The notes below the pieces were generated by a model. That model searched no databases. It had not been told where the DNA came from and saw nothing but the letters and a program-made list of their open reading frames with translations. 54,330 nucleotides of DNA. Origin: Burkholderiales bacterium 68-10 (GTDB taxonomy: Bacteria; Pseudomonadota; Gammaproteobacteria; Burkholderiales; Burkholderiaceae_C). This document shows, one piece after another, positions 12,908 to 33,934 of the stretch. The stretch lies in contig MKTG01000050.1 in assembly GCA_001897615.1 (NCBI GenBank), positions 25,539 through 79,868 on the forward strand, read 5' to 3'. The translations under genes were made by a program, and so were the position numbers. Every line of letters begins with the position of its first letter. Positions within the stretch are counted from its first letter, which is position 1.

Positions 12908-12920
12908 CGTCAGACGTTGA
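12908..12920. repeat. Left attachment-site repeat (attL)
   Basis: CGTCAGACGTTGA, identical to the 3' end of ychF read on the plus strand, lies 14 bases past the HAD stop codon. This is the expected chromosomal scar of integration. Confidence 0.8.
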
Positions 12921-14405: not shown

Positions 14406-14957
14406 CGCAACACCGCAAACAATGCGGGCGAGAGCCAGTTCCTATTGCGTGCGGCCTACATGATGATGTCCGCACTACATTGACCGGGCAGTTGCCAAGA
14501 CCGATGGGCTTCGTACATCGGCACCCCTAACAGCGCAGGTTCCTGCAAGCGCTGGCCCAACAGGGTGGAGCCACCCCAGGTATGCCCAGGCTCCGACCGC
14601 ATACCGACCCTACCCAAGGGCGGAGCCTTCTTCGTCTGTTTGAACTCATCCCTACCGCGCCGTCTGGCGCACTGTCCTTTGCAGCAATTGCCTGTGCGCG
14701 ACGCACAGGGTTCCCGCTGCATGTCTCATCCCACTCACCTCATAGGAGGACTCGTCCACGTTCACAACACTTTCGTCTTGCATTACCTCCGTCTGGACTT
14801 CCAACAGGGAGCAAGACGGACGCCTCATTCGAGGCCCTGGTGTCTCCTGAACACCATGCCCTTGCCCTCACGGGATCTCGCCTTGGCGAGTTGGCACCAA
14901 CACTAACCACTGAATTTCAGGACAACGCAGTACGGTGCTTTGTTTGGAGACCGGAAG
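14406..14957. other. 550-bp stretch without a convincing gene
   Basis: Between the replication protein and the integrase-domain gene I see no ORF with recognisable protein character. Overlapping ORFs of 88-141 codons exist on both strands but look like chance. The sequence has several self-complementary pieces (for example GGGTGGAGCCACCCC near 14563, and CCTACCCAAGGGCGGAGCC near 14610) that could fold as RNA. Its conservation in related elements should be examined. Confidence 0.4.
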
Positions 14958-15836: not shown

Positions 15837-18800
15837 CTACTTCACCACCTCCATCAGCTTGCCGAAACTGTCCACCACGTCGTATTTGACGTTCTCCGGG
15901 GCGTAGCAGCGGTTCATCTCGTCGAAAAACTTGCGGGCGCACTTGATCTTGGTTTTCTCGATCTCACGCAGGTCCATCGAGGACATGGACCCCTTGGTTT
16001 CCGCCACGAAATAGATGTGCTTGACCGCGCCTTCCTTGAAGCTGATCGCCCAATCCGGGTTGTAGTCGCCCACAGGCGTGGGAATAAGGAAGCCGCGTGG
16101 CAACTTGGCATAGACCACCACTTCATTTGCTGTGTCCAGCTCTTTCACGAACTCCCGCTCCACCTTCGAATCCGTCAGCACATAGTCGTAGATGTGTCGC
16201 TGAAGCTTGTCACCGGCCTTGCTGAAGTCCTGCTTGGTCTGCCCGACGGTGAAGATGTCGAGGTCGAACTTGTCCTCGACGGGATCGTAGGCCAGGTGTT
16301 CGATAATGACCGTGGCCTTCTGCTCGTTGATGAGTCGCGTGGCCTCGGCGATGAAACTTTCCGGGTTAGTCTTGAACTGCGCAAAAACCGCGACGTTAAT
16401 ACCCTTGAGGATTTCCGCCACCGTGCGGCGAGTCAATTGAGTACCTTCGGCCAGCTTGCCGATCAGGTCGTACTTGACCGCTGAATGAATCGACTGCTTG
16501 TTGTATTCGGTCTTTGTTTCGGCAACCTTGAAACCATCTCCACGCTTTAGCGCCTCACCAGTCACCTGGTCGATCTGTTCGCCTGCCTGGATGGTGTATT
16601 GCAGCGGGGTCACGCGCAGGGCCGCGTCCAGCTCCTTGACCGCCTTTTGCACCAATTCATGAGAGTCGAAATCGACACTGTAGGCCGCCTTGCGGTTGAT
16701 GCGGTTCCACAGCGCCTTGAACTCCTGTTTGTCGAAGTTGGCGTTGAGCGGGTTCTTCTTGGGTTTGCGGTCGTCGCCGATGTCAGGCAATTGGCTGGCA
16801 CTGAACACACTGTCGATAAGCTGGTACACCTGCGCCGCGTGCGGCTTCAGTTCGTCTGGCAGATCGGCCAGCGTTCCAGCCTTCTTGGCATCGTGATACG
16901 CGCCCGCGATCCGGTCTGAATCGTCTGTGTAGTCGTTCTTAACCAGATAGCGGTAGATTTGCTTCGCCAGTTGCGGCGTAACCGGCATGTCGCCGGTCGC
17001 CGTTTTCAGCACCTTGCCAGTGAAATATTCCTCGTTTGCCACGCGTGGACGTTCCGACAGCGACTCGCTGATGTCCTTTTGCAGCGCGGTCACGAAGTCC
17101 TTGTAGCTCTCGCTGGCCACTACCGTCAGCACGTTCACATCGTGAACGGTAGCCGGGTGATCCATCCGGTCACCATTCTGGTTGACCGACAGCCGCAAGC
17201 CGCGCCCCACCTCCTGGCGGCGGGAGATGGTGTTGTCGCTGTGCTTGAGCGCGCAGATGACGAACACGTTCGGGTTGTCCCAGCCTTCGCGCAACGCCGA
17301 GTGCGAGAAGATGAAACGCACCGGCTCTGCGAGCGACAGCAGGCGCTCTTTATCCTTCAGGATCAGGTCGTAGGCGTCCACGTCATCTGAAAACCCAGCG
17401 TTCTCGCCGCGCGCGGCAACCGTCGAGTCAGCCAGCCGCTTGGTTTTCTTGTCGATGGAGAAGTATCCGCTGTGGGTCTTGTCGGCCGAAATACCCTTCA
17501 AGTACCTGACGTAGGCCGTTTCGTCCAGATCGAGCATCTCGTTCAGGTACTGCGTGTATTCCGCTTCAAAGATGCGGGCGTATTCACCCTTTTCGTCCGC
17601 CTGCGTGTAGTCGCGGTACTTGGCCACCTCGTCGATGAAGAACAGGGTCAGTACCTTCACGCCCTGTTGGAACAATGCCTGTTCTTTGTCGAAGTGCGCC
17701 TTGATCGCTTCCCTAATTTGGATGCGGCGCAGAGCCGCCTCGGTCACGTCGCCGGTAGCGTCGCCGACCGTCAGCTCCACGCCATTGGTAAAGCTCAGGG
17801 TGTCGGTGTTGGCGTTGATGTCCGTCACCACGTAGTTGCGGTACTGATCCAACCCGCCCGACAGATCGAACAGGTTGTCGCCCTTGCCGAGCTTGCGCAC
17901 CACGCGCTTGATGTTGCCGCTCGCCAGCTTCTGCTCGAACTCGACGCGCGCCTCGGGCGGCTTCTTGCTCGAAATTTCGATGGATTGCAGGTACAGATAG
18001 CCTGCCGTGCCCGCCAGTCCCTTCACCGCGATGCCACGCACGGCGATTTTCTTCACCAGCTTCTGATTGTAGGCGTCCAGCGCATCGAGGCGGTGAATCT
18101 TGTTGTGGGTGGTCTTGTGGGTCGCCGAATAGCGCAGCACCATCAGTGCCTTGAACGCTTCCAGGGAATCCAGCGTTTTCTTGCCTTCCATCTTCTGCGG
18201 CTCATCCAGTATCAGGATAGGGCGGTTGGCGCTGATCACGTCAATGGGTCGGCGGGACTGGAAGTCGTCCAGTTCCTCGTAGATGCGGCGGTTGTCTTTG
18301 CCGGTGGCATTGAAAGCCTGCACATTGATCACCATCACATTGATGCCCGCGTCCGACGAAAAACTCTCAAGGTGGTGCAGTTGCTTGGAGTTGTAGATGA
18401 AGAAGCGCGCCTTCTTCTGGTACGTCTCCAGGAAGTGCTCGGCGGTGATGTCCAGCGACTTGGCCACGCCCTCGCGGATGGCGATACTGGGTACCACGAT
18501 GATGAACTTGCTCCAGCCGTACAGCTTGTTCAGCTCGAAGATGGTCTTGATGTAGCAGTAGGTCTTGCCCGTGCCGGTTTCCATCTCGATGTCGAGATTG
18601 ACCTTGGCCACCTTGGTTTTGACCAGCGCATCCGACAGCGGCAGGTTCTGCGCTCGTTGCACGGCGTGGATGTTGTCCAGCAGAGCCAGCTCCGACAGGG
18701 TGAGGTCGGCGTTGCGAAAAGCCGCCTCCTGCTCTGCCGCTGCCCCTGGCGCGGCCTCCAGCGCCAGCGCCCCTTGTGGGCTGGCGGGTGCCGCCTTGCG

Positions 18801-18920
18801 GGTGCCGGGGTCAAGACGATAGCGAATGCCGCCGTGCTGCGGCACCTGCCCCTTGAAACAGTCCACCACGGCCTGTACGGCGGCAGTCTGGTAGGCCTGC
18901 GTTTTGAACTTCAGCTTCAT
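15837..18920 (-). CDS. res: Type III restriction enzyme, Res subunit (helicase-nuclease)
   Basis: A 1027-residue ATP-dependent DNA translocase and nuclease that works with Mod to cut DNA lacking the Mod methylation. Walker A is METGTGKT (residues 113-120) and the DExx box is LILDEPQ. The second RecA domain shows [13 protein letters not shown] and EVGRGLRLS. Near the C-terminus GDYNPDWA with AETKG (Pro955-Asp956, Glu974, Lys976) forms a PD-(D/E)xK nuclease site. Length agrees with known Res subunits. A low-complexity alanine-rich insertion sits at about residues 43-67. The start lies 10 bases after mod, so it is the last gene of the defence operon. All key motifs are intact. Confidence 0.93.
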
Positions 18921-18930: not shown

Positions 18931-20823
18931 TCAAATGCTCTTCACTTCGGTGGATGGCGACAAGAGCTTAAAGATTTGCTCCACGTTGATCTTGACGGCG
19001 CTGTCCTTGAATCCGGCGTCGCGGAACACTACGCGCAGCGGCTTGTAGGTGGCCAGGTCCTTGACAAAGGCTTCGTCGATGCCGCCGTGCGCATCAAAGC
19101 AGGCGGCGAGCGCCGGGTTGCCATCCAAACTCGCGTCCACGAAGAACACCTCCTTGCCCTGGACGACCTTCTTCTCGATGGGCAGGGCGAGGTCAACGCC
19201 CCAGTCCAGCATCACCTGGAACAGCAGGTCTTCCGCCGTGCGGTCAGGCTTGATGTTGTCCACGAACAAGTCGAGATTGGCCTTGTCCAGTGCGTCGGGG
19301 GAGTAATACACGTCGGCCATGTTGGATGTGTCGATCTTGAGGACGCGAAAGCCGAGGTCGAGTGTCCTGGATTTATCACTTTCACTCAGTTCTTTGGCCA
19401 CATTGCGTATCCGTCTCTGCCCCATTTCAAAGATCGATGCCATGCCAAGCTCAGGCTTTGGAAGCGGCTCGGAAATCTGCACACCAATGAAACGTCGATT
19501 GCCACCGTCCTCGGCGTTTTGCTTCAGTACGGCATGGGCCGTGGTGGCGCTTCCACTAAAGAAGTCCAAAACAACATCGTCGCTGCTTGGGCTCGTCGCC
19601 AGTTGTAGGACTCGCTGCAATAGTTCAACTGGCTTTACTGAGTTGAGAACATTTTCTGTCTCTTCGAATGAAACGTATTTCAGCAAAGTCTTCTTCGCGT
19701 CCTGCGTGTGGCCCACTTCACTGTAAAACCAAAGGGTTTGCGGTGTTCTACCTTGCTTGACTTCAGTCAGAAATCGCTTAAGGCGGGGCATATTGTCGCC
19801 ATTAGCACCCCACCAAATTCGATTATCTGAATCCAGCTTTTTGAAGTTTTCTTCACTCACCCGCCAGTAACTTCCCTTCGGCGGCCCATCGATCACACGG
19901 CCGGAAGGGCACTTCACGGAATAGAGTCCCGCATCGTATCTGTTGCGTGCAGTGAGGTTATCGGATTGCCATACGCCACGAGGATCATTGTCAGGATTTT
20001 TATATCTAGCAATCATCTCATCGGTTTGTGGTAGAAGATTGGGTGTCCAACTCTCGCCATTCTTTGCATAAACCAAAACATAGTCGTGATCCTCCGAGAA
20101 CCATCGTGCGCTGTTCTTGGGAGAGAATACTTTCTGCCAGATGATCTGTGCAACAAAGTTCTCCTCGCCGAACACTTCGCTACATGCCTTGCGCAGATTA
20201 TCGACTTCATTGTCGTCAATTGAGATGAAGACGACACCGTCGTCTTTGAGCAAGTTCCTTGCAAGCCGAAGGCGCGCATAGATCATGCTCAACCAGTCCG
20301 AATGGAAGCGGCCATTGGCCTCCGTATTGGCGACCAAACGACCACCTTGCTCATCGACCTGGTTGGATTCAATCAGATAGCTTTCGGAGTCCTCGCTGAA
20401 GTCATCGTCGTAGATGAAGTCTCGGCCCGTATTGTATGGCGGGTCGATATAAATCAGCTTCACCTTGCCCAGATACGTTTCCTGCAGCAGCTTCAACGCA
20501 TCCAGGTTGTCGCCCTCGATGAACAGGTTCTTCGTGGTATCGAAGTCCACGCTTTCCTCGCGCACCGGGCGAAGTGTCTTGGCAATCGGCGCATTGGCCG
20601 TCAGCAGCGCCTCGCGCTTGCCCGGCCAGTTCAGGTGATACCGCTCCTGCGGCCCTTCCACGATAACGTCGGACAGCTCCTGCCGAAGCTGGTCGAAATC
20701 CACCGCCAGTTTCACACTGCCGTCTTCGCCCTTGGCTTCCGTCATGCAGCCGGGGAACATCTCGCGAATACGGGCGATGTTGTCTTCGGTCAGGTTGGGC
20801 GAGTGCATTTTCAATTTATTCAT
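18931..20823 (-). CDS. mod: Type III restriction-modification methyltransferase, Mod subunit
   Basis: A 630-residue adenine-N6 DNA methyltransferase that also provides target recognition for Res. Catalytic motif IV is DPPYNTG (residues 127-133), and the AdoMet-binding motif I region [13 protein letters not shown] (about 420-432) follows it, the beta-class order typical of Mod. The central 200-400 region is the likely target-recognition domain and should be the most variable. The track starts at a TTG; ATG 20823 lies 8 bases after AGGA and is preferred. Res starts 10 bases downstream, and herA ends 52 bases upstream. The target sequence cannot be predicted. Confidence 0.93.
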
Positions 20824-20875
20824 GGGCAATTTCCTAAAATATTTGCAGATTCAGCAGTATCAAAAAACTGCCCTA

Positions 20876-23059
20876 CTAAAACGGAATATCGTCATCTTCA
20901 GCTGCGGTATCAGCATCTTCCGCTTCAACCAACGGAGTCTGATTGGCTTCACCTGCACCGGTTTGTTGCCAATCAGTCGCGATCTCCTGCCAGTCCACAC
21001 TGCGTTCAATTTTCTGGCCGTGCTCACTTCCCTCCAGCCCTTCACCAGACCACACTGCCCAGAAGTCGGGATCATCTGATTTGGGGCGTTGATCCTTGGG
21101 CAAGCTATTCATCTGCACCAGGACGGGAAGCTCAGATGCCCATCCCAAAAGAATGGCGTTGCGAGAGGGTAACGACGGCAAGTCGCGCAGCAGGCCACGC
21201 AGGTTGTCCGGCACCAGCTTGTGAACCAGTTCCTGATCACGGTCGTTGCTGATGCGATGTAGTAGATAGCTATTGCACTGGGACAAGACGGTGGGCGACA
21301 GCTCGCTGGGGCGTTGCGAAGACAACACCAGACCCAAGCCGAACTTACGGCCCTCTCTGGCAATTTTCTCGAACACCTGGCAGCAGATGGCTGCGGAGTT
21401 CTGGTTCTCCGCATCATCGTGATAGCGCTTAATGAAGGTGTGCGCTTCTTCCATGACCAAGACGGTAGGCAAGATCTTACCCGCATTGAGCTTACGGTAG
21501 CGTTGCAACGATTCCAGCGTCATACGGGCGATAACGGCAGTAATGATATGAACCACTTCCGCGGGAACCAGCGAAAGGTCAATCACCGTCACGGAACCGT
21601 TTGAAGCTTGGTTGTTACCAAGATAGTCACTCAACCAGTTGTCAAGATTTATGCCGTCCGTGTTAGAGATGATTGAGCGCATCCGGGTGTCGGACAAGAG
21701 TGTGCGAATGCGGGATACCAAAAAATCAACAAACTGACTGGCGTTTTCTTGTTCCGCCAAAATTTCTAGGTGGTCTGGGAGCTGAGAACCATCAAAGGCT
21801 ATTGGCACGTCCTCATCTGGCCCATCGTGAAGCAGAATGCCTCCGACAGTTTCAACTGAGGATTCCAGTGCTGTGATGATTCCCTGAACGTGAGCTTCAT
21901 TAAAAGCACGATAATATTCAATCGTCTCGCCATTTTTAACAAAGCTGTGGTGTGCGGCTCCTAAAGCAGTATTGATTGCCTCTAAGGCTTCATCTAGCTT
22001 GTTATCTCCATGTATGGCTATCTTCCCTTGTAAATCTGTGGCAATTGCCTTCAGGCGGAAGCCAAACTTCGATTCATCGGTCTGGATATCACCTGAACGC
22101 AGATCCCGGCGTGTTGAAATTAATCGAGATGAAAGATAACGGCGTAGTGCGAGCTTCTCTTCTTCCGGCGAGGTAGTCGAAATGGCCCTTCCTGCTTTGA
22201 CATCTCGCAGCGCACGCCGAAGCAGCGGGCGTTGCATCTTTGCACTGGCTTGAGTAAATGCACTCCATTCGGCGCTGTTCCAGAACCATAAGGGCACCTG
22301 GAGTTGCTCAATATCTTCAGAGTTTTCAGGTGGATCGACCGCAAACACCCGTACCTTTCCCATGCCTTTGAAGGTATTCGCGTATTCGCCATTGGGGTCA
22401 AGCACAATGAAACGGGCATTTGGGTCGGCTCCGTTGCGTGCCTTTCTGGCCGCATCCATCGACCAGCGAACCAAGCCAGCAACCGAACACGATTTGCCGC
22501 TGCCCGTATTGCCCAGGACAGCTAAATGACGACCGAAGAGACGATCAGGGTCGATCTTCACCTCTGCATTGGCCGCCAAAGGACTGACGCCGATTTTGAC
22601 GCGGCGATTCTCTCCCGACTCGACGATGGCGCGCAGCTGATCTTGCGTTGGCAGTAGCACCTGGTCACCCACCGAGGGGTAAGCCTGTACGCCGCGCTTA
22701 AACTCGTAGTGATCCTTGTCGCTGTCGCCGCCTGTGTAAGACAGAATCCCCAGCGGGTTCAGGCTCATCTTGCGCAGTGGATACGGCAGATCCACCAGAC
22801 CAAAGTCCTGCATTCCCTTACGCTTGGGGTATTGCGAACGCTCGACCGTGATCCATTCCACCTGTGCGACCAAGTAACCTTGCTCACCAGGTGCGAGCAC
22901 ATAACCATTGATGCGGGGGAATGGGCGCGGCGTGCCAGTATTGAGGGAAACACTGCCTGGCGCTTCTATGTCCAGCAAGACCTTGATCTCATCGGGCGAG
23001 ACGAAATCAATCGTACCTATGCGCAGAGCGTCAGCATGCGCCAGTGGAGACAGGCTCAT
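20876..23059 (-). CDS. herA: HerA-like ATPase, partner of SIR2
   Basis: A 727-residue HerA/FtsK-superfamily ATPase. The N-terminal about 170 residues form a HAS-barrel-like domain. Walker A GNTGSGKS is at about residues 183-190 and Walker B in VLVMEEAH. KFGLGLVLSSQRPSELSPTVLSQCNS is the characteristic sensor/arginine region, and HRISNDRDQELV follows. HerA proteins form hexamers; in the known SIR2-HerA anti-phage system HerA associates with a SIR2 NAD-consuming effector. The ATG at 23059 overlaps the SIR2 stop by 4 bases (ATGA) behind GGAG, so translation was coupled; an upstream in-frame start at 23074 is possible. The IS21 insertion lies 570 bases upstream, so expression may be reduced. Confidence 0.9.
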   Translation of the reverse strand: MSLSPLAHADALRIGTIDFVSPDEIKVLLDIEAPGSVSLNTGTPRPFPRINGYVLAPGEQGYLVAQVEWITVERSQYPKRKGMQDFGLVDLPYPLRKMSLNPLGILSYTGGDSDKDHYEFKRGVQAYPSVGDQVLLPTQDQLRAIVESGENRRVKIGVSPLAANAEVKIDPDRLFGRHLAVLGNTGSGKSCSVAGLVRWSMDAARKARNGADPNARFIVLDPNGEYANTFKGMGKVRVFAVDPPENSEDIEQLQVPLWFWNSAEWSAFTQASAKMQRPLLRRALRDVKAGRAISTTSPEEEKLALRRYLSSRLISTRRDLRSGDIQTDESKFGFRLKAIATDLQGKIAIHGDNKLDEALEAINTALGAAHHSFVKNGETIEYYRAFNEAHVQGIITALESSVETVGGILLHDGPDEDVPIAFDGSQLPDHLEILAEQENASQFVDFLVSRIRTLLSDTRMRSIISNTDGINLDNWLSDYLGNNQASNGSVTVIDLSLVPAEVVHIITAVIARMTLESLQRYRKLNAGKILPTVLVMEEAHTFIKRYHDDAENQNSAAICCQVFEKIAREGRKFGLGLVLSSQRPSELSPTVLSQCNSYLLHRISNDRDQELVHKLVPDNLRGLLRDLPSLPSRNAILLGWASELPVLVQMNSLPKDQRPKSDDPDFWAVWSGEGLEGSEHGQKIERSVDWQEIATDWQQTGAGEANQTPLVEAEDADTAAEDDDIPF

Positions 23060-23649
23060 AGCTGGTCGCTCCAATCTTCAGCGGCTTGTCCCTGGGGCTT
23101 GGGAGCACTTTGCTGAGTGGCAAAGCGCTGCTTGAGAAGTTCGCTCATGCGGAACGTCGTCTTGTCAATCGCAGCCTTGGGCAGGAAGTTTGCCGTTAAT
23201 GTCGTCAAGTCAGCCAGTGCTGGACCAATCAGTAAACTAATTTGCGATGGTCGGCCGATCTCTTCATAGGTTTTCATGATGCGGTCAAGCGGATCATCGC
23301 GCGAAATCACAACCAAGTGCGTAGACGGGATGGTGAGCATGTCACGGATCACCCGGTTGATATGCTCGTCACCAAAGCTATAGCCGTATGTAACTAGGGT
23401 GCTATTCGGTCGGCACACTGCGGCTGCCAAGTCTCGGAACAACTCCACATAGGGATAGTCTGCAGTTTCCCTGTCCTTGGCGGCGTTGGGGTAGATCATC
23501 AGCCTGTGGGCCGTTGCCCCGCCCAAGCCCGGAGCCTGCAAATACGGCTCAACTGTGTCGGCTCCAAAAGGCAGGCCGATTCGGCGAATATCCTTGCCGG
23601 TCTGCACCCAATCCACAGAACCATGCAGCTTGGTGTCAGCGACCGGCAT
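23056..23649 (-). pseudogene. SIR2-like gene, C-terminal fragment (split by IS21)
   Basis: This encodes the second half of a SIR2-family protein (SIR2_2-like). It starts inside the split motif with KLHGSVDW and continues to VTYGYSFGDEHINRVI, the C-terminal SIR2_2 signature. The first five codons (MPVAD) come from the IS end; true host sequence begins at 23633. An ATG supplied by the IS terminal repeat at 23649 could allow translation of this piece from any transcript entering from the IS, but it lacks the NAD-binding half. It overlaps the herA start by 4 bases, so translation of this fragment could still help herA expression. Confidence 0.88.
23629..23633. repeat. Target-site duplication of the IS21 element (left)
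   Basis: CTTGG precedes the IS end TGTCAGC and is repeated at 26337-26341 right after the other IS end. Removing the IS plus one copy restores the SIR2 reading frame exactly. Confidence 0.9.
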
Positions 23650-23804
23650 ATACCGGCCACCCCGGAGTCGGCATAAACCGGCCAGAGCCCGACCGGCGGC
23701 GCGCAGTCGGAGTCGGCATATACCGGCCAGCGCGTAGTCGGCATATATCGGCCAGGCCGTAGCCGGCGTAATCCGGCCACGGCGCAGCCGGCATATACCG
23801 GCCA
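23643..23804. repeat. Left multiple terminal repeats of the IS21 element
   Basis: Six 16- to 18-base copies of (G)TCGGCATATACCGGCCA start at about 23643, 23667, 23712, 23737, 23762 and 23787, mostly about 25 bases apart with one 45-base step. Two inverted partners are at 26288-26305 and 26311-26328. They are the expected transposase-binding repeats of IS21. Confidence 0.8.
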
Positions 23805-23900
23805 GCGGCGCCGTCGCGAGCGTCTCGAGATCTCTGACCCGATCGCTACCCTGCGAGCTTTTTGCTCGAGGGGGTCGCGGTGGGTCGCAGGAGGATCGAG

Positions 23901-25430
23901 ATGTTCCAGTACCGTCAGGTTCTCGTGCGCTTGCGCGCCGGGGACACCACGCGCGAGATCGCCCGCTCCGGTCTCATGGGGCGCGACAAGGCCGGCGAGC
24001 TGCGCACCCTGGCCCTGAGCCGCGGCTGGCTCGACGCCGGCGCCGAGCTGCCGGACGATCAGGCGATCGCCGCCGCGCTCAAGCCCGCCCGACGCGCCTC
24101 GTCCACCGTCTCGGCCGTCGAGCCCTTTCGCGAGGTCGTGCTGCGCTGGGTCCAGGCCGGCGTGCAGAGCCGGGCCATCCACGCCGCGCTGCGCCGCGAG
24201 CACGGCTTTTCCGGCAGCTACTCGGCTGTGGTGCGGATGGCGCGCTCGCTGCGCGCCGCACAGCCACCCGAGGTCACGGTGCGGCTGAGCTTCGCGCCGG
24301 CCGAGGCCGCGCAGGTCGACTTCGGCGCCGGACCGGTGCTCATGCACCCGGACGGCAAGCCGCGGCGCACCTGGGCGTTCGTCATGACGCTGTGCCACAG
24401 CCGCCATCAGTACGTCGAGTTCGTCTGGGACCAGAGCTCGGCCACCTGGCTGGGCTGCCACCGCCGCGCCTTCGAATGGTTCGACGGCGTGCCCGAGCGC
24501 GTCATCGTCGACAACGCCAAGTGCGCCATCGTCAAGGCCTGCCGGCACGATCCGCTCGTGCAGCGCGCCTACGCCGAGTGTGCAGAGGGCTACGGGTTCC
24601 GTATCGAGGCCTGCCCGCCGCATGACCCGCAGAAGAAGGGCATCGTCGAGTCCGGCGTCAAGTACCTCAAGGGCAACTTCCTGCCCACGCGCAGCTTCCG
24701 CGATCTCGCTGACCTGAACCGCCAGGCGCGCGACTGGGTCCTGCTCGAAGCCGGCGAGCGCATCCACGGCACCACGCGCGAGAAGCCGCTGACGCTCTTC
24801 GCGCTCGAGCGCCCGCTGATGCGCCGGCTGCCGCCCGTGGCGCCGGACCTGGGCACCTGGCACAGCGTGGTCGTGCACCGCGACTGCCACGTCCAGTTCG
24901 CCCGCGCCTACTACTCGGCCCCGTTCGCCCTGGCCGGCAAGACCCTGTGGCTGCGCGCCACCGACGCCGCCGTCGCCCTGTACCAGGACTACCGCCACCT
25001 CTACACGCACCTGCGCGCACGGCGCCCCGGCGAGCGCATGACCAATGCCGACCACCTGCCGCCGGACGCCCGTGCCTTCTACCGCCACGACCGGCGCTGG
25101 TGCCATGAGCGGGCGCTGGCCATCGGCCCGCACTGTGCCCAACTGATCGACCACCTGCTCTCGGATCGCATCGCCGAGCGGCTTCGCGCCGCCCAGTCCG
25201 TGATCGCGCTGGCCCAGCGCTACGGCGCCCAGCGCGTGGAAGCCGCATGCCAGCGCGCCATCGCGCACGACAGCCCGTACTACGTCACCGTCAAGACGAT
25301 GCTGGCCACTGGCGCCGATCTCGCGCCGATCGCCTCGGTCGAGACGCCCGGAGGCTACCAGCGCACCCGGTTCACCCGCAGCGCCGCCGATCTGTTCTCC
25401 AACGCCCCCGCCACCCCCACCCTTCAGTAA
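23901..25430 (+). CDS. istA: IS21-family transposase IstA
   Basis: A 509-residue DDE transposase. An N-terminal helix-turn-helix (LRAGDTTREIARSGLMGRDKAG) is followed by the integrase core, with acidic residues in VDFGAGPVL, VIVDNAKCAI and KKGIVESGVKYLKGNF. The C-terminal domain with FARAYYSAPFAL is typical of IstA. ATG 23901 follows GGAGGATCGAG, an ideal ribosome site, so it is preferred to the earlier ATG in the track. The product cuts and joins the IS ends with help from IstB. No frameshift is visible. Confidence 0.95.
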   Translation: MFQYRQVLVRLRAGDTTREIARSGLMGRDKAGELRTLALSRGWLDAGAELPDDQAIAAALKPARRASSTVSAVEPFREVVLRWVQAGVQSRAIHAALRREHGFSGSYSAVVRMARSLRAAQPPEVTVRLSFAPAEAAQVDFGAGPVLMHPDGKPRRTWAFVMTLCHSRHQYVEFVWDQSSATWLGCHRRAFEWFDGVPERVIVDNAKCAIVKACRHDPLVQRAYAECAEGYGFRIEACPPHDPQKKGIVESGVKYLKGNFLPTRSFRDLADLNRQARDWVLLEAGERIHGTTREKPLTLFALERPLMRRLPPVAPDLGTWHSVVVHRDCHVQFARAYYSAPFALAGKTLWLRATDAAVALYQDYRHLYTHLRARRPGERMTNADHLPPDARAFYRHDRRWCHERALAIGPHCAQLIDHLLSDRIAERLRAAQSVIALAQRYGAQRVEAACQRAIAHDSPYYVTVKTMLATGADLAPIASVETPGGYQRTRFTRSAADLFSNAPATPTLQ

Positions 25431-25445
25431 CAGGAGCCATCGTCC

Positions 25446-26240
25446 ATGACCACCTTCAACCCCATGCCCGAACTCGCCCCGCAGCTCAAGCAGCTTCGCC
25501 TGTCCGGCATCCTCGATTCCCTCGAGTCGCGAAACCGCCAGGCCATCGAGGGCAAGCTCGCCTACACCGAGTTCCTTGCCATGCTCATCGGCGACGAAGT
25601 CGCACGGCGCGAGAACAAGAAGTTCGACATGCGCCTGCGCCGCGCGCAGTTCCGCACCACCAAGACCCTGGAGCAGTTCGACTTCGAGCGCGTGCCCACC
25701 CTGAACCGCGCGCTGCTCCAGGACCTGGCCGCCGGCCGCTACATCCACGAGAACGCGCCCGTGCTCATCGTGGGGCCCAGCGGGGTCGGCAAGAGCCACC
25801 TGGCCCAGGCGCTGGGCCACTGCGCGGTGCGCCAGGGCGTGGACGTCACCTTCACCACCTGCACCGCGCTCACCCAGTCGCTCAACGCCGCACGCGCCAC
25901 CGGCATCTACGATCGAAAGATCGGCGCGCTCGCGCGCGTCGGGCTGCTGATCATCGACGACTTCGGCCTCAAGCCGCTGCGCGCACCCGCCGACGAGGAT
26001 CTCCATGACCTGATCGCCGAGCGCTACGAGCGCGCTCCCACCCTCGTCACCAGCAACCTCGACTTCGAGGAATGGGACCAGGCCTTCGCCACCAACCGCC
26101 TGCTGGCCAGCGCCACGATCGACCGGCTGCGCCATAACGCCTACTGCCTCGAACTCGACGGCCGCTCGTACCGCGACCCGAAGGTCGCTCCGGCACCGAA
26201 AAAGGCCGCCGATCGCGCCCCGAAAACTGCGGCAAAATGA
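25446..26240 (+). CDS. istB: IS21-family helper ATPase IstB
   Basis: A 264-residue AAA+ ATPase related to DnaC that selects the target and stimulates IstA. Walker A GPSGVGKSHLA lies near residue 110 and Walker B in LLIIDDFGLKPL near 160. The N-terminal helical LKQLRLSGILDSLE motif is standard. It starts 15 bases after istA behind CAGGAG. The C-terminus is a basic lysine/alanine tail (KAADRAPKTAAK). It appears intact. Confidence 0.95.
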   Translation: MTTFNPMPELAPQLKQLRLSGILDSLESRNRQAIEGKLAYTEFLAMLIGDEVARRENKKFDMRLRRAQFRTTKTLEQFDFERVPTLNRALLQDLAAGRYIHENAPVLIVGPSGVGKSHLAQALGHCAVRQGVDVTFTTCTALTQSLNAARATGIYDRKIGALARVGLLIIDDFGLKPLRAPADEDLHDLIAERYERAPTLVTSNLDFEEWDQAFATNRLLASATIDRLRHNAYCLELDGRSYRDPKVAPAPKKAADRAPKTAAK

Positions 26241-26318
26241 CCCACTGAACCAACCCTCTCGGGACGCTTCACGGCAACCGCCACACTGGCCGGTATATGC
26301 CGACTCCCACTGGCCGAT

Positions 26319-27155
26319 TTATGCCGGCTGCTGACACTTGGTGAAGCGAGCGACACCCTCCAGATACCGGGGTTCGCCACGGATACCCGGTGGGTTGTAG
26401 TGCATATCCAGATCAAGCCTAGAGGAACGGAAAATGGGCATTAGGTTGCCAAGAAAGCGATCCAGAAGATGCACGCCAGCCAGTTCCGCTCCAGCTTCAA
26501 TCAGCCTGTCGTAATTGGTCGTAAAAATGCTCAAGCGGTCGCGTGTTCCAATCCGACTTGCGAAGCTCATCAGAAACGTGACCAGTGTGTTGAAGGCTTG
26601 TTCACGTTGGTCGTCCGGAGCGACGGCAATCCCGGCTTCGCTCTTCAGAATGGACTCGGCGAACGTCTGCATTCCCGCTTCGAGTTCCCCGCGTAAGGTG
26701 GCTGCCTGGGCATCTTGAAGTATCTCCATACCACGCAACAGCTCATTTGCCACCCGCAGTTGATCCTCAACGTTGCCCTTTTTCCTTCCAGCCTGGCTTG
26801 CAGACGCTTCGGCTGCTGTGTTGATATTGTCTTGCTGAGTGGTAAGTGGAAGCGCTCCCATACCGGCTGCACCTTTCCCGGCAGCCAAGTAATGCACTGC
26901 ATGAGTGAGGCCCGACCCTGCCAACAGAGACAGGTGCTCAGACTGAAAGAGTGATGTCAGCCACGGCTCGATGTGTTCCCGCAGTTCCTTCTGGCTGAAC
27001 CCTTCCGAACTAACCCAAGATGCTTCACTGCCCTCCTGGAGTTTGAATTTCTTGTTCTCCGATTCGGCAAAGTACAGCGGTTTATCGTCATTTCTGACCT
27101 TGACGATGTTGGGGTAAAGCTCTTCTAAGCTTGTCTGTTTGCTAGTGTTCGGCAT
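26319..27155 (-). pseudogene. SIR2-like gene, N-terminal fragment (split by IS21)
   Basis: This encodes the first 273 residues of a SIR2-like NAD-dependent protein plus five codons read into the IS before a stop. The nucleotide-binding AGSGLTHAV (about 79-87) and the FTTNYDRLIE motif (about 211-220) are typical of SIR2_2 defence proteins. The break falls between FTK and LHGSVDW. Joining 26337-27155 to 23056-23628 gives 1392 bases, an uninterrupted 463-residue protein. SIR2 proteins paired with HerA deplete NAD during phage infection; this fragment lacks the second half of the active site and is presumably inactive. It starts 20 bases after the DUF4391 gene. Confidence 0.9.
26337..26341. repeat. 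Target-site duplication of the IS21 element (right)
   Basis: CTTGG immediately after the IS terminus GCTGACA, matching 23629-23633. Confidence 0.9.
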
Positions 27156-27175: not shown

Positions 27176-27838
27176 TTATCGGATCAATGCTGCATGGTCG
27201 TTCTTCAACTGCCGCAATTGAGCATTGATCTCCACCTTGCGATTGAACTGCTTTTCCTTGGCCAGCCGCGCCGTGATCCTGTCCAGCTCACGCTGCTTGG
27301 CTTGTGCTTGTTCGACGCGCGCCACCAGCTCGGCCAGTGTTTCCAGTGGCCGCGCCGACAGAGGGATCAAGCGGTGCAACAGTTGCTCGTACAGCCCGCC
27401 CAGATGCAGAGCTACGGGCATCGCGGTGCGTTCGCCATCCATTGGCAGCCAGTCCGATGCAAAGTAGCTGGAGAGCCCCCAACGGCTGGCGTCGCCTTCG
27501 TTCGGACGCTTGTAGGCGGCAGTCACCTGCGTTCGGCCATCGAAAGTCAGCTCGAACACGATAGGAAACGGGATAGCCCCGTCGATACAGCGCAGCACAT
27601 CGGCGTGCAGTTCCGGCGTTTTGAGCTGGATGCTGAAGATCTGGATTTCGGGTACGCCGGGGCGCGCCGGCAGATGCAGCGTCTCCGGTGCCAGCTTGTA
27701 CTGCCAGACGATCTGTTCCACCTGTTTGACGAACAGGTCTTTGAGTCGGGTGTTGGCTCCGCTGTATTCGTAGATCTTGTTCTTGGGCAGAACACGCCCG
27801 AAGGCGGCCTGCTTGGGGTAGGCGATCAGCGCGCTCAT
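27176..27838 (-). CDS. DUF4391 domain protein
   Basis: A 220-residue protein that resembles the DUF4391 family by its N-terminal block (FGRVLPKNKIYEYSG, then a lysine-rich KQVEQIVWQYKL segment) and its central beta-rich part ending VALHLGG. The C-terminal 60 residues form a charged probable coiled coil (VEQAQAKQRELDRITARLAKEK). The molecular function is unknown. From memory, DUF4391 genes tend to sit beside SNF2-type helicases and methyltransferases in defence islands, as here. The start overlaps the helicase stop by 4 bases (ATGA), so the two products are probably made in fixed ratio and act together. Confidence 0.72.
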   Translation of the reverse strand: MSALIAYPKQAAFGRVLPKNKIYEYSGANTRLKDLFVKQVEQIVWQYKLAPETLHLPARPGVPEIQIFSIQLKTPELHADVLRCIDGAIPFPIVFELTFDGRTQVTAAYKRPNEGDASRWGLSSYFASDWLPMDGERTAMPVALHLGGLYEQLLHRLIPLSARPLETLAELVARVEQAQAKQRELDRITARLAKEKQFNRKVEINAQLRQLKNDHAALIR

Positions 27839-30800
27839 CCGGCCTCCTGAATCACGAGGAAGCTGATGAGTTCAAAGTCGTCCAGCCCAGAGATGGTGCC
27901 CGTTAGCGCCGTGGTCTTGCCGCCGGTGAACAGGCTGTCCAGATCCTTTTCTTCCTTCACCTCGATCATCGAACGGATGGCTTTGCCCAGCAGGTAGGAG
28001 TAGGGCTGCATCCTGCGGCCATCCGACGTTTCCTGATTGAAGCGCTGGCAAGCCTCAATCATGGGCTTGTCCCGCCCTTTGCAGCATGTGCGCGCCAGAT
28101 CGAGCAGGCGCTTGACCTCGGTGTGGTCGTGGATCACCTCGCCCTCGCGGTTGATGTAGACGAGGTAGTAGGGGTGCAGGCGATTGTGCTGGTTGAGGTT
28201 GACGCCTGAATTGCGGTTGCGTAGCGTGAAGATCACCCCAGGATGCAGCCCCATCTCAGGCCGGGTGGGTACGACGGCGTGCATCCCGTTGGGCACATTG
28301 CTCAATTCGCCGTGGGCCTTGACGTAGTTGAGCAAGTCCATGCGGAAGTCGTTCAGGCCCAGATCGGTGATGGAGACACCGGTCTTCAAATCCTCCAGCT
28401 CGATGACTTCTTCCTGCAAGCGGCGCAGTTGCTCCTTGCGGTATGACACGTCGTTGGCTTGCGCGGACAGCACGTTGTCGTCGCCGGTGGCGGTAACGTC
28501 GGCGATCATCATCCGACTCTCGACGCGCTCCTTGAGGTTGATGTACTCGTCGAGCGAGATGTCGGGCCAGTAGTTGACAAGCTGGATGCTGGTATTGGGC
28601 GAGCCGATACGATCCACTCGACCAAAGCGCTGGATGATGCGCACCGGGTTCCAGTGGATGTCGTAGTTGATCAGGTAGTCGCAGTCCTGCAGGTTCTGGC
28701 CTTCGGAGATGCAGTCGGTGCCGATCAGCAGATCGACTTCGTGCGGCTCGTCCGGCAGCACTACAGCCTTCTCTTTCGAGCGAGGGGAGAACAGGGTAAG
28801 CAGTTCCTGGAAGTCGTAGCTGCGCTTGTGTGCGCCGCTTTTGATGGTGGACTGCGGCGCGCTCTTGCCGGTGACTTTGGCGGCGTGGATGGCGTGCCTG
28901 GCCAGCAGCTCCGGCGCAAGATTGGCGTACAGGTAATCGGCGGTGTCGGCAAAGGCGGTGAAGATCAGCACCTTCCTGTTGCCGGGGTTGATGGGCGCTT
29001 CGATCTTGCCAAGCAGTTGCACCTTGAGGTGCTGCAACTTGGCGTCGTCCTGCGGGGTAATCTTGTTCATCGAGGCCAGCAGGGCGTCGATAACCTGCAA
29101 GTCAACCTTGAGTTCGTGCTCCCAGGATGGCAAGTCCATGTCGGCGAGGCTGATCTTGATCTTGCCGCCGATCTCGCCGCCCTCGTCACTGGGTATTGGC
29201 AGGTCGTCGTCCTCGGCATCCAGCCCCTCCAGCACTTCCGTAAGGTCACCCACTGTCGCCGCGTCACCGGATTGGTTGAACACGGCAATTTTGGCCAGCG
29301 TAGCTTCGTGGTTGGCGCGCAGCGATTGCAGGGTGAGTCGGAATGACTGTACCGAGCTTTCGAGGCGCTTGAGCAGGTTGACCGTCATCAGGGCCTGCAG
29401 GCTCTTTTCGCGGTCAGCCTGACGCAGCGTGCCCTTGCCGCCAACCTTGGTGTCGTAGATATCCTCGTACTTTTTCAGACGACTGGGCAGGATGTAGCTA
29501 ATGGGCGCATACACAGCCAGCCTGAGCAGGGAGAGCTGCTCGAAGATTTCGTTGAAACCCAGCACGTCTGATCGCTCGGTCAGGCGGCAGTGGAACGACA
29601 ACGGCTTGCGGCGCTCGGGAAACTGGCCAATGTCCTTGGTGTCGTAGAAGGTCTGGATGTGCTTGCGCGAGCGTGCAATGGTGACGCTGTCGAGCAGCTC
29701 GAAAAAGTCAAAATCCAGCGAATCAAGGATTGCTCGCGCGGTGCGTTCTTCCGGTGGCAGCTTTGACCATGTGTTGAAGACTGCCTGGGCGTTGCGAAAA
29801 ACTTCTTCCACCGACTTGCTGGTGCGTAGTTTCTTGCTGAGGCTTTCCGAGTCGCCTTCGTAGGCCAGCGCAAGCTGGTTGCGCAGGTCGTTGAAGCGGT
29901 TGTTGACCGGCGTGGCCGACAGCATCAGCACCTTGGTCTTCACCCCTTCCTGAATGACCTTGCGCATCAGCTTCTGGTAGCGCGTTTCCTTGTCTTTGTA
30001 GGCGTCGTTGTTACGGAAGTTGTGCGACTCGTCGATGACGACCAGATCGTAGTTGCCCCAGTTGATGCGGTTGAGCGGTGTGCCGAAGGATTCGCCGCTA
30101 GTGCGCGAAAGATCCGTATGGCACAGCACGTCGTAGCTGAACCGGTCGCGGGCGAAGATGTTGGTCTTGAGGTTGCGGTTGTAGTTGAGCCAGTTGTCGG
30201 CCAGCTTCTTGGGGCAAAGTACCAACACGGATTTGTTCCGCAACTCGTAGTACTTGACCACGGCCAGCGCAGTGAAGGTCTTGCCGAGGCCGACGCTGTC
30301 GGCCAGGATGCAACCGCTGTAGGTTTCCAGCTTGTTGATGATGCCGGTAGCCGCATCCTTCTGGTAGTTGAAGAGCTTGTTCCAGATCAGCGTGTCCTGG
30401 TAGCCCGTGCGATCGTTGGGCAACACGTCTTCGTCGATGTCGTCGAGGAACTCGTTGAAGATGTTGTAGAGCATCAGGAAGTAGATGCTCTCGGGCGAGT
30501 TCTCCTGATAGACCGAGGCGATGTGCTCGCAGATCTGCGCAGTCACGTCCTCCAGTTTTTCGGAGTCGTTCCAGATCTGGTCGAACAGACTGAGGTAGGT
30601 GGCAGAAAAGGGGGCCTCGTCCATCTTGTTGACGAGGTTGGACACCGCATTGCCTTGCTGGTAGCCGAGATCGACAGCGGTGAAGCCGTGCAGAGGCATG
30701 TACGCCGTGTCGGTGCCGCCAGCCTGCACGCAGGCGAATTGCTGCATAGGCGCTTTGGTGCGGTTGCTGCGGAACGTGGCCTTGCGCCGTATCCAGTCGG

Positions 30801-31125
30801 CACATTCCTTGGCCACAGCCCGCTGGGTGAGCTTGTTGCGAAGCTGAATCTCGAACTCGCTGCCGTAGAGGCTGCGCTCGCGGTCGAGCTTGGGTATGTG
30901 GAACTCCTTGCGTTCCTTGCGAATTTTGTCGGTGACCTCGTTGGCCACAAAGGTAGGCGAGGTGAAGATGAAGTTCAGCTCGTCAATCTTTTCCAGCTCG
31001 GCCTTCAGCGCCTCGAAGGCGTACATCGAAAAGCACGAGGCTGCGATCTTCAGGCGCGCACCGGGCCTGAGGGTCTGCTTGAGATCGTCGCCCAGCAAGC
31101 GGCTGATGTTGTCGATCAGTTCCAT
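27835..31125 (-). CDS. SNF2-type helicase with PLD-like N-terminal domain
   Basis: A 1096-residue protein. Residues 1-165 look like a phospholipase-D-fold nuclease domain (LKIAASCFSMYAFEALK, later LHGFTAVDLGY), but the usual HxK reads HGF (His146-Gly-Phe), so the PLD active site is probably degenerate. The helicase core has Walker A ADSVGLGKT (275-283), DESH (365-368), LSATPVNNR, then the C-terminal helicase domain with VLIFTAFADTADYL, GTDCISEGQNLQ and QRFGRVDRIGS. An acidic insert (EGLDAEDDDLP) separates the two lobes. It would translocate on DNA using ATP. It lies between fic (10 bases) and DUF4391 (overlap) and all motor motifs are intact. Confidence 0.88.
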   Translation of the reverse strand: MELIDNISRLLGDDLKQTLRPGARLKIAASCFSMYAFEALKAELEKIDELNFIFTSPTFVANEVTDKIRKERKEFHIPKLDRERSLYGSEFEIQLRNKLTQRAVAKECADWIRRKATFRSNRTKAPMQQFACVQAGGTDTAYMPLHGFTAVDLGYQQGNAVSNLVNKMDEAPFSATYLSLFDQIWNDSEKLEDVTAQICEHIASVYQENSPESIYFLMLYNIFNEFLDDIDEDVLPNDRTGYQDTLIWNKLFNYQKDAATGIINKLETYSGCILADSVGLGKTFTALAVVKYYELRNKSVLVLCPKKLADNWLNYNRNLKTNIFARDRFSYDVLCHTDLSRTSGESFGTPLNRINWGNYDLVVIDESHNFRNNDAYKDKETRYQKLMRKVIQEGVKTKVLMLSATPVNNRFNDLRNQLALAYEGDSESLSKKLRTSKSVEEVFRNAQAVFNTWSKLPPEERTARAILDSLDFDFFELLDSVTIARSRKHIQTFYDTKDIGQFPERRKPLSFHCRLTERSDVLGFNEIFEQLSLLRLAVYAPISYILPSRLKKYEDIYDTKVGGKGTLRQADREKSLQALMTVNLLKRLESSVQSFRLTLQSLRANHEATLAKIAVFNQSGDAATVGDLTEVLEGLDAEDDDLPIPSDEGGEIGGKIKISLADMDLPSWEHELKVDLQVIDALLASMNKITPQDDAKLQHLKVQLLGKIEAPINPGNRKVLIFTAFADTADYLYANLAPELLARHAIHAAKVTGKSAPQSTIKSGAHKRSYDFQELLTLFSPRSKEKAVVLPDEPHEVDLLIGTDCISEGQNLQDCDYLINYDIHWNPVRIIQRFGRVDRIGSPNTSIQLVNYWPDISLDEYINLKERVESRMMIADVTATGDDNVLSAQANDVSYRKEQLRRLQEEVIELEDLKTGVSITDLGLNDFRMDLLNYVKAHGELSNVPNGMHAVVPTRPEMGLHPGVIFTLRNRNSGVNLNQHNRLHPYYLVYINREGEVIHDHTEVKRLLDLARTCCKGRDKPMIEACQRFNQETSDGRRMQPYSYLLGKAIRSMIEVKEEKDLDSLFTGGKTTALTGTISGLDDFELISFLVIQEAG

Positions 31126-31135
31126 CGTTTTCCCC

Positions 31136-32182
31136 TTACGCTCGCTTGATCCATTTCGCGCCTCGCCCCTTGCCCGTTGATTCGATCAACCCCTCTGATT
31201 TCATCGCCCGCAGCACTAGCCGCACCATGTCCCTGCTTACGCCCGGGCAGGCTTCTTCGATTTCGGAAATCGAAAACGGCAGAGTGCGTCCCAGAACTTC
31301 CGCACGCACCCGGTCGCCTTTGCTGCCACGGCCACGTTCGATGGTGCCGACACGTTCCTCGAACTCACGGTAGGCCCGTAGCAAGGCACCCCAGAAATAG
31401 TCGAGCCATGGCTTTACGTCGTGCTGCCCCTGGTGCCAGCCCTGCGAGCTGGCTTCCAGCGTCTCGTAATAGCCTTCCTTGGTATCTTCGAAGATGCGTT
31501 CCAAGCTGATGTAGCGACCCACGGCATAGTCGAAGTGGTAGAGCAGCAGCAGGGTCAACAAGCGGGACATGCGGCCGTTACCATCTGGGAACGGGTGAAT
31601 GCACAGGAAGTCGAGCATCGCCAGTGGTGCCAACACCAGCGGGTCGGCCAGGTGCTGATCCAGCGCGGTGGCGTAGCGCCCGGTCAGATCGCCCATGGCC
31701 ATCGGCGTGAGGTGCGCGGCGACTGGCTGGAAACGCAGACGCGAAGTGCCATCCGGGTGACGTTCGATGATGTCGTTATTGGTAGCCTTCCAGCGCCCGC
31801 CTGCCTGCGGCATATAGCGGTACAGCAGGGTGTGCAATTGCAGCACTACGCCCTCGCTGAAGGACATGTGCGCGGCCGATTCGTGGATCAGCGCCAGGGC
31901 GTCACGGTAGCCGGCGATCTCCTGTTCGGAACGGCTCTTTGGCGTTGCGTTGCGGATGACCAGGGACTTCAGCCGCGAGGGTGCTACGACAACACCTTCC
32001 AGCCGGTTAGACGACTCAGTGGACTCCACCACCGCGATCTGGCGCAGGCCCTTTAGGGCTTCGGGCGACTGTGCGGCGTAGAGTTGCTGCTTACCCTGGT
32101 ACTCGCCCAGTGTGCGCAACGTGGCGGCCTGGGTGCCGTCGAAGCGAAGCGCGGCGAGGTACTCGGGTGTGAGCGAGTGCAT
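31136..32182 (-). CDS. fic: Fic family protein with C-terminal winged helix
   Basis: A 348-residue Fic-domain protein. The catalytic loop is HPFPDGNGRMSR (His196), complete for AMP or other nucleotide transfer to a target hydroxyl. An N-terminal inhibitory helix matches (S/T)xxxE(G/N) in SSNRLEG (Ser58, Glu62, Gly63), so activity is probably self-restrained. The last 70 residues (GRTLPFSISEIEEACPGVSRDMVRLVLRAM region) form a winged helix-turn-helix. It is the first gene of the defence run and lies behind repeated ATTACCCCATTT sites, so it may autoregulate the operon. It could alternatively be a toxin or stress regulator captured by the island. The start ATG has only a weak ribosome site. Confidence 0.9.
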   Translation of the reverse strand: MHSLTPEYLAALRFDGTQAATLRTLGEYQGKQQLYAAQSPEALKGLRQIAVVESTESSNRLEGVVVAPSRLKSLVIRNATPKSRSEQEIAGYRDALALIHESAAHMSFSEGVVLQLHTLLYRYMPQAGGRWKATNNDIIERHPDGTSRLRFQPVAAHLTPMAMGDLTGRYATALDQHLADPLVLAPLAMLDFLCIHPFPDGNGRMSRLLTLLLLYHFDYAVGRYISLERIFEDTKEGYYETLEASSQGWHQGQHDVKPWLDYFWGALLRAYREFEERVGTIERGRGSKGDRVRAEVLGRTLPFSISEIEEACPGVSRDMVRLVLRAMKSEGLIESTGKGRGAKWIKRA

Positions 32183-32204
32183 GGAAATGTAAGTCCAGGT
32201 TGTC

Positions 32205-32392
32205 TAAATGGGGTAATCATAGCCTTTAAATGGGGCATTGTCTCTAGAAATACCTCATTAAAGGTGTTTGATTACCCCATTTCATGAACGTAGGCCCGGT
32301 CGCGAGGGGTCGGCATGACCGACCAGGAAGGAAACGCATAAAAGGGTAATAATTTCACAATTACCCTATTTCCCCCATTGTTTACCCCATTT
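32205..32392. promoter_or_regulatory. Repeated ATTACCCCATTT operators and probable promoter of the defence operon
   Basis: Within the 333-base gap, copies of a 12- to 14-base motif occur at 32205-32219 (TAAATGGGGTAATCA), 32225-32239 (TTTAAATGGGGCATT), 32269-32284 (TGATTACCCCATTTCA), 32361-32371 (TTACCCTATTT) and 32381-32392 (TTTACCCCATTT); 32342-32350 (AAGGGTAAT) is a weaker match. On the minus strand TATGAT (32216-32221) with GAGACA 17 bases upstream (32239-32244) is a plausible sigma-70 promoter, starting transcription about 27 bases before the Fic ATG. The two promoter-proximal motif copies overlap it. The Fic winged helix is the obvious candidate binder. Confidence 0.55.
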
Positions 32393-32442
32393 CCAGGCCC
32401 AACTCAGGGCGAAGGCAAACGGCAAGGGAACGGCCCTCAAGG

Positions 32443-32477
32443 GACAACGGCCCTATCCAGAAAAGGAAAAGGCCGTT
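32443..32477 (-). terminator. Possible hairpin after the integrase gene
   Basis: On the minus strand AACGGCC and GGCCGTT bracket a loop of about 18 bases containing TTTTCCTTTT, roughly 40 bases past the integrase stop. The loop is long and no terminal T-run is present, so this is weak. The rest of the 32183-32515 gap holds the operator repeats and no gene. Confidence 0.3.
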
Positions 32478-32515
32478 CTGCCCACTCGCTGCTGCGATAC
32501 CCGGCCAAACCGTCT

Positions 32516-33727
32516 CTATGATGTGCCGCTGCCCTCCGCAGCACTCAGATAGTCCGCCCAGTCCTGCAACAGCGTCCTTCTCTGATCCAGCAGCAGCGCC
32601 TTGTTGTACGTCGCCCGCACCTTGTTGCTTTCCACGTGTGCAAGTTGCCGTTCAATTGCATCAGGCCGATATCCGTTCTCATTGGCCCAGGTCGAAAAGG
32701 TCGTCCGCCAGCAATGCGGTGTCGTGCCCCGGCCCAGGTTCATGTCGCGCATCGCGTAGGTAAGCCGATTTGGCGTGGTGAATCCCTTGCCGCTCCGGTG
32801 TGGGAATAGATAGCGCCCACCACTTGTGATGCGCTGCAAGTCTTTCAGTACCGCTATGGCCTGCGTGGACAATGGGCTGACATGGTCACGCCGCGCTTTC
32901 ATCTTCGCCGCAGGCCGACGCCACAGCGCATCCTCAAAGTCGAACTCGTCCCACTCGGCATCCGCCGCTTCCCCTGGACGGCAGGCGGTCAGCGCAATCA
33001 GCCGCAGACACAAAGAGGTTTCCGGATAGCCCCTGTAGCCGCGCAACTCCTGATAGAACTTCTGGATTTGCTCTCGCGTCATCGCCGCCTTGCTCTCGCT
33101 GAACGGCACGCGCAGCAGCCCGCGCAGGCTGGGAATTGGATTTGCCTCGACCAGCCCCCGCACGACCGCGAACTCGAAGATGGCCGACAGATCGCCTTTG
33201 ACGTGAATCGCCGCCCAGGCTCCGTGGGACTTGCATTCCTCCAGCAGCGGACGAATCTGCTTGACGCCAATGTCGCTCATCGGCATCCCGTCGAACTTGG
33301 GTGACAGGTACTTCCTGATGCGTGACTCTTTCGTCCGGTAAGAACTGAGCGCAAAGACTGGCTTGATCTCGGCCAAGTAAGCCTGCGCCACCTTGGCAAA
33401 AGAGCTTTCACGAGCGCGTTTGCGTTCCTCCAGCACTTCCAGGTTGCGCTGCTTGACCTGCTGCCGTTCATGGGCAGGATGGATGCCTTGCTTGACGAGG
33501 GTTCGCGCTTTCTCGCGAGCTGCGCGCGCCTCCGCAAGGCTTACTTGAGGAAAACCGCCGATAGCAAAGAGGTTCTCCTTGCCTTGCAGGCGGTACTTCC
33601 ACCGCCAGAGCTTGCCGCCGGCGGGCTTGACCAGCAGGAACAAGCCTCCGCCGTCTGATAGTTTCCAATCTCGATCAGTCGATTTGGCCGACCTGACCTT
33701 GAGGTCGGTGAGTAGGTTTTCGGGCAT
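32516..33727 (-). CDS. int: P4-type tyrosine integrase of the island
   Basis: A 403-residue site-specific recombinase. The N-terminal about 90 residues (SDGGGLFLLVKPAGGKLWRWKYR) are the DUF4102 arm-binding domain of P4-type integrases, followed by a core-binding SAM-like domain and the catalytic domain. The catalytic set is complete: Arg250 (TACRPGEA), His338-x-x-Arg341 (HCWR), His364 (LAHVES) and Tyr374 (RATYNKA). It points away from ychF, with its start 195 bases from the right att repeat, the standard position for the enzyme that inserted the element. Most relatives use tRNA genes; here the target is the end of a protein gene. Confidence 0.95.
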   Translation of the reverse strand: MPENLLTDLKVRSAKSTDRDWKLSDGGGLFLLVKPAGGKLWRWKYRLQGKENLFAIGGFPQVSLAEARAAREKARTLVKQGIHPAHERQQVKQRNLEVLEERKRARESSFAKVAQAYLAEIKPVFALSSYRTKESRIRKYLSPKFDGMPMSDIGVKQIRPLLEECKSHGAWAAIHVKGDLSAIFEFAVVRGLVEANPIPSLRGLLRVPFSESKAAMTREQIQKFYQELRGYRGYPETSLCLRLIALTACRPGEAADAEWDEFDFEDALWRRPAAKMKARRDHVSPLSTQAIAVLKDLQRITSGGRYLFPHRSGKGFTTPNRLTYAMRDMNLGRGTTPHCWRTTFSTWANENGYRPDAIERQLAHVESNKVRATYNKALLLDQRRTLLQDWADYLSAAEGSGTS

Positions 33728-33751: not shown

Positions 33752-33793
33752 GTACCCCCACGGTTGAACACGAGTACCCCCAACGCTACCCCC
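33752..33793. promoter_or_regulatory. GTACCCCC repeats between integrase and right att site
   Basis: GTACCCCC at 33752-33759 and 33774-33781 and CTACCCCC at 33786-33793 match the octamers near the left end of the island. They lie just upstream of the integrase start and could be arm-type integrase sites that also control the int promoter. Confidence 0.4.
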
Positions 33794-33921: not shown

Positions 33922-33934
33922 CGTCAGACGTTGA
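33922..33934. repeat. Right attachment-site repeat (attR) inside the ychF 3' end
   Basis: CGTCAGACGTTGA, which on the minus strand spells the last ychF codons AAC GTC and the TGA stop. The island leaves the ychF coding sequence complete. Confidence 0.8.

Follow-up and report, generated by a model that had tools for sequence, protein, structure and literature searches.

The window analysed here, a stretch of 54,330 nucleotides from Burkholderiales bacterium 68-10, contains a fic gene (31136–32182, minus strand) for a 348 aa class II Fic AMPylase with a predicted C-terminal winged helix. A short motif is repeated upstream of this gene and defence genes follow it, which raises the question of what binds the repeats, and whether the genes behind fic would be under the same control.

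The motif ATTACCCCATTT, allowing up to two mismatches, is found five times in the window, every copy lying within 32206–32392, while 0.72 matches are expected and a count of five was reached in 0/100 shuffles. In the whole 3.64-Mb genome it occurs four times with at most one mismatch, always upstream of fic. Two degenerate copies (three mismatches, direct reading) sit in phase in the gaps, at 32249–32260 and 32339–32350, giving a total of seven. A preliminary description of this DNA had counted five or six copies in both orientations; the copies are real, but they are not scattered, and form a symmetric proximal operator of four sites and a distal cluster of three. The proximal sites are site 1 (32271–32282, plus strand, offset -100, ATTACCCCATTT), site 2 (32249–32260, plus strand, offset -78, AATACCTCATTA), which is degenerate in the window and stronger in many relatives, site 3 (32228–32239, minus strand, offset -57, AATGCCCCATTT) and site 4 (32206–32217, minus strand, offset -35, ATTACCCCATTT), the best conserved. 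Their orientation is <- <- -> ->, with the -10 box straddled, and the steps of 22, 21 and 22 bp together with the opposed pairs place them on one helix face around a symmetry centre. The only promoter-like site found in 31000–32600 is the sigma-70-like GAGACA-17-TATGAT (32244–32216, minus strand), and the overlap of two copies with it that had been described holds, site 3 lying inside the spacer and site 4 overlapping the -10 box at its last two bases. The distal cluster (32339–32392) consists of TTTACCCCATTT (32381–32392, plus strand, offset -210), ATTACCCTATTT (32360–32371, plus strand, offset -189) and the degenerate ATTACCCTTTTA (32339–32350, minus strand, offset -168). An Rfam search of 12000–36000 returned no match, and a reading of the region as an RNA element was dropped.

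Conservation of the array was examined in 97 related loci (fic 74–100% identical), with slots scored at up to three mismatches. The preliminary description had named a lack of the motif upstream of homologous fic genes as evidence against its proposal; the motif is conserved there, and in fixed phase. At least three of the four proximal slots, near -100, -78, -57 and -35 and 20–22 bp apart, are filled in 91/97 loci (all four in 52, three in 39), compared with 0/1,940 shuffles, and the most constant motif positions are T3, C5, C6 and T11. Within the clade at 74–82% identity, conservation mostly reaches about 90% or more in site columns against about 40–60% in inter-site columns, and since the intervening DNA has largely diverged, conservation of the array reflects selection on the sites rather than recent common descent. 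The TAnnAT of the -10 box is conserved in the same clade; the -35 hexamer is not. Two or more distal sites are present in 25/29 integrase-linked loci versus 5/51 others. The array is shared by fic loci of many beta- and gammaproteobacterial hosts, and a scan of 951 kb of related loci turned up a single comparable array that is not upstream of fic. The tandem pattern AAATGGGGT-N-AATGGGGTA matched twice in 21 other genomes, both times in a single genome and in sequence resembling an unrelated AAATGGGGTCA repeat. Scanning viral contigs retrieved one fic relative (L087) with query P0001, and none with two distant queries.

The protein has the features expected of an autoinhibited enzyme joined to a putative DNA-binding domain, and the intact HPFPDGNGR loop, SSNRLEG helix and predicted C-terminal winged-helix sequence reported for it earlier are all present, H196 included. 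Its active site (HPFPDGNGRMSR, H196–R207) carries the HxFx(D/E)GNGRxxR motif of class II Fic AMPylases, as do 123/125 fic relatives. The inhibitory helix SSNRLEG, within ESTESSNRLEG, occupies residues 57–63 of the same chain, agrees with the class II pattern (S/T)xxxE(G/N) and is invariant across Fic alignment A1; both motifs are intact in 122/125 relatives. The PADLOC SoFic model PDLC03963 matches residues 23–345 (E 4e-35), predicted winged helix included, and the putative recognition helix lies at about residues 316–329 (SRDMVRLVLRAMKS). Searches of the C-terminal domain against Pfam HTH families gave weak matches (best E 0.005), and relative L102 has DeoR/RNase R winged-helix matches. The domain search of the window protein gave the Fic domain only, and the WYL domain of CapW/BrxR proper is absent. 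An AlphaFold model, computed from a shallow alignment (79–98% identity), was too poor for fold conclusions (pLDDT 45), with winged-helix topology only at about 54–68; its order of helices and strands fits a winged helix, and Foldseek with this model was useful only in naming PDB 8uqu. That entry, a Bordetella bronchiseptica Fic family protein (2024), is about 97% identical to the window Fic, and is titled as the N-terminal domain only, the winged helix apparently falling outside the model.

Several characterized Fic proteins bear on the question. In CccR of Yersinia pseudotuberculosis, a class II Fic, an HTH mediates repression of the protein's own promoter (Nat Commun 2022, PMC9755527). Like the window Fic, it is a class II AMPylase; its C-terminal HTH, its action as a dimer and its autorepression on inverted repeats near -35/-10 have predicted counterparts in the window Fic. 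An inverted-repeat operator on its own promoter is also present at fic, but the spacing differs, CccR having two boxes (AGATAATCAT-N26-ATGATAATCT) 36 bp apart as against four sites at 21 bp. Unlike the window Fic, CccR is a secreted T6SS effector and is not described as heading defence operons. The structure 7xux is probably CccR, and if so shares only remote sequence similarity with the window Fic. SoFic (3eqx, 3zcn), a dimer, has domain order and class II inhibition in common with it, but is reported as a single-gene abortive-infection toxin, in E. coli (H397) with an antitoxin, AS1, and no operator is described for it (PMC12249575). CbFic2 of Coxiella burnetii combines Fic with a winged HTH, and its demonstrated binding of DNA can raise Fic activity (PMC10628234); it differs from the window fic in having been studied as a histone H3 (de)AMPylase, and an operator at its own promoter has not been demonstrated.

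Binding of the repeats by the Fic winged helix would predict that the motif shifts along with the recognition helix. Relatives at 57–64% identity, with helices SRDM or GRDM, keep the TTACC core, L103 and L104 reading ATTACC[C/T]ACTT and L105 ATTACCCCATTT. Gram-positive and phage-borne relatives (38–47%) have different helices and different phased words around the promoter, for example GGTATCATTT (L100) and TTCTGCA (L110), several of these arrays (L098, L101 and L109) being individually non-significant by shuffling. The sister clade (45–51%) is without an array upstream of fic, and GGGTAAT/TTACCC repeats instead span the fic stop codon; this 3′ array is found in 11 loci (L088, L089, L091, L094, L106, L132 and L134–L138), mostly in one phase (-6, 0, +14, +26), and all their helices are SRDM or SKDM. 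The gene after the 3′ array is hsdM in L106 and recO in L136 (by eye). Four relatives with GRDT, SHRT or SRKT helices are without GGGTAAT repeats at the stop codon. Two of the four, L090 and L092 (helix GRDTIRS), instead show repeats of TTTAATCCATT and its complement at this position 3′ of fic. TTACC arrays accompany SRDM-type helices, 5′ of the gene or, in a separate clade, 3′ of it, and not GRDT, SHRT, SRKT or Gram-positive helices; a maximum-likelihood tree separates the 5′-array and 3′-array groups. As independent changes are few, the match amounts to concordance and falls short of a strong statistical test. The turnover of the motif with the recognition helix, and the precedent of CccR, support the earlier proposal that the winged helix of Fic would be the binding domain.

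The genes behind fic, all on the minus strand, begin 10 nt after it with an HKD (PLD)+Snf2 helicase (27835–31125), followed by a DUF4391 protein (27176–27838), the SIR2 (23056–27155) and HerA (20876–23074) of a SIR2-HerA pair, and a type III RM methyltransferase (18931–20829) and restriction subunit (15837–18920). An IS21-family element (23650–26318; istA 23862–25430 and istB 25446–26240, both plus strand) splits the SIR2 gene, probably leaving this copy inactive, and the genes downstream of the insertion may no longer be reached by transcription from the fic promoter. Across the int-fic islands, fic is 80–99% identical and the cargo differs, the genes 3′ of fic usually overlapping or lying within about 150 nt. 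They include a Druantia-type helicase (17 loci, in three of which it is a 44% version), several unrelated sorts of type I RM (about 19 loci), a DrmD-like helicase (4 loci), HKD+Snf2 (2 loci and the window) and Wadjet JetC (1 locus). Fic-linked Wadjet JetC and a PrimPol-like protein were noted at L078 7536–11036 and L070 7977–10454. In six loci (L014, 7189–10308; L004, L006, L007, L035 and L053), the first cargo gene codes for a ResIII protein of about 1039 aa, which has a ResIII match alone and no PADLOC model, and is possibly an undescribed defence component. The fic gene shares with the functional class of CapW, BrxR and CapK/S the position of a regulator gene ahead of diverse, unrelated defence operons. 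Beyond W344 the sequence of the Fic tail largely follows the class of the cargo, and the DrmD loci, which occur in both fic clades, have the common tail QVKxEG; both observations point to cargo exchange by recombination at the fic 3′ end.

Upstream of fic is a tyrosine integrase with an Arm-DNA-bind_3 domain (32516–33727, minus strand) that is co-conserved with fic, the same integrase holding this position in about 29/80 loci. In about 31 of the 80, ychF adjoins int or fic; the host YchF proteins are mostly 55–87% identical to that of the window, and the int-proximal DNA about 85–96%. At the 3′ end of ychF in the window is a putative att core, CGTCAGACGTTGA (33922–33934), directly repeated at a putative second core (12908–12920). 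The 13-mer repeat would be non-significant by itself, and GTACCCCC arm-type repeats occur exactly four times in the window, at 33752 and 33774 near one end and at 13014 and 13026 near the other. Together, the 13-bp repeat and the paired GTACCCCC repeats suggest a putative 21-kb element spanning 12908–33934, with the ychF 3′ end as its insertion site. A second tyrosine integrase (Phage_int_SAM_2/Integrase_1; 14940–15821, plus strand) lies near the far end.

The repeats might have been arm-type sites of the neighbouring integrase, within a recombination complex, given its Arm-DNA-bind_3 domain and the similar TACCCC core of the GTACCCCC repeats at the att ends. The sites, however, lie on the fic promoter and not at att, the T that is invariant at position 11 of the motif is missing from the att repeats, and arrays persist in fic loci without such an integrase and in more distant relatives; this reading is barely credible and was dropped. 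A host-encoded transcription factor could bind the motif, with fic merely its target, seeing that the assignment of Fic as binder comes from sequence, yet one array recurs in many beta- and gammaproteobacterial hosts, further sites at up to one mismatch are absent from the genome of the window, and motif changes follow the Fic recognition helix. We regard a host factor as very unlikely.

A more serious alternative is that Fic itself is the effector, a SoFic-like abortive-infection toxin that the operator only keeps at a low level, while the defence genes hitchhike or are read through. Both SoFic and CccR are toxic AMPylases, the active site is intact in almost all relatives, and about a dozen loci keep fic and its operator but show no recognised cargo. 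Against this, the genes are closely spaced, varied defence systems stand directly behind fic in about 50/80 loci, and the cargo-class specificity of the Fic tails implies that the fic end and its cargo travel as a unit. An effector role is a real possibility, if clearly not the favoured one, and could hold together with autorepression. The preliminary description had further suggested that the operon is perhaps de-repressed by auto-modification of Fic during infection, taken here as auto-AMPylation. Autoinhibition motif and active site are intact, and CbFic2 couples DNA binding with enzymatic activity (PMC10628234), but the sequences show no trigger or modification site, and a dimer-interface mutant of CccR loses repression while keeping toxicity and AMPylation (PMC9755527), so the two activities are separable in that protein. 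Auto-modification as the release step is a guess, and a rather improbable one.

Considering the array, its conservation, the helix–motif concordance, the gene order and the exchange of cargo, we infer that Fic binds these sites, represses, and affects the whole operon. To judge from the sequences, it is probably a portable autorepressor of its own promoter and of the downstream defence operon, acting via the four-site operator. A Fic dimer would engage the four 12-bp sites, 20–22 bp apart on one helix face, through its C-terminal winged helices, and occupancy over the -10 box and start site would hold down fic and the defence operon trailing it. The second cluster, which lies about 120 bp upstream in integrase-linked copies, might strengthen repression, either by looping or by blocking transcription that comes from int. 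Release, more speculatively, might follow dilution of Fic on entry into a new cell, its titration, or a conformational change caused by ATP or AMPylation. Control over the whole operon is plausible given the 10-nt gap to the next gene, and overlap or near-abutment in many relatives; the loci with fic and operator without recognised cargo indicate that it is not the sole selected role.

Auto-repression by Fic is already known, as are portable immune regulators of other families: CapW/BrxR (WYL) and CapK/CapS stand ahead of diverse immune operons, as proposed here for fic (PMC9122588, PMC9122589, PMC13373217), but belong to families unrelated to Fic and are without its enzyme domain. What appears to be new is the setting of fic as the constant head of cargo-swapping int-fic islands at the ychF 3′ end. 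A partial literature search found no paper joining Fic autorepression with portable immune regulation or linking Fic with Druantia and RM regulation, none citing 8UQU or giving a functional account of that structure, and none on islands at ychF. More tentatively, Fic AMPylases could be a general, exchangeable control module of immunity, in which the constant int-fic-operator unit of a mobile, ychF-targeting island is combined with whole defence systems swapped at the fic 3′ end, and their expression is coupled to the ATP or AMPylation state of Fic. The silencing and switching-on of costly immune operons is understood in just a handful of regulator families, and fic adds a candidate that is also an enzyme and is present in many Pseudomonadota. 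Because the operator can be read from sequence, the regulatory role of fic and its trigger are directly testable, and the int-fic head at ychF provides a sequence handle for finding defence systems, among them cargo without a match to any known system.
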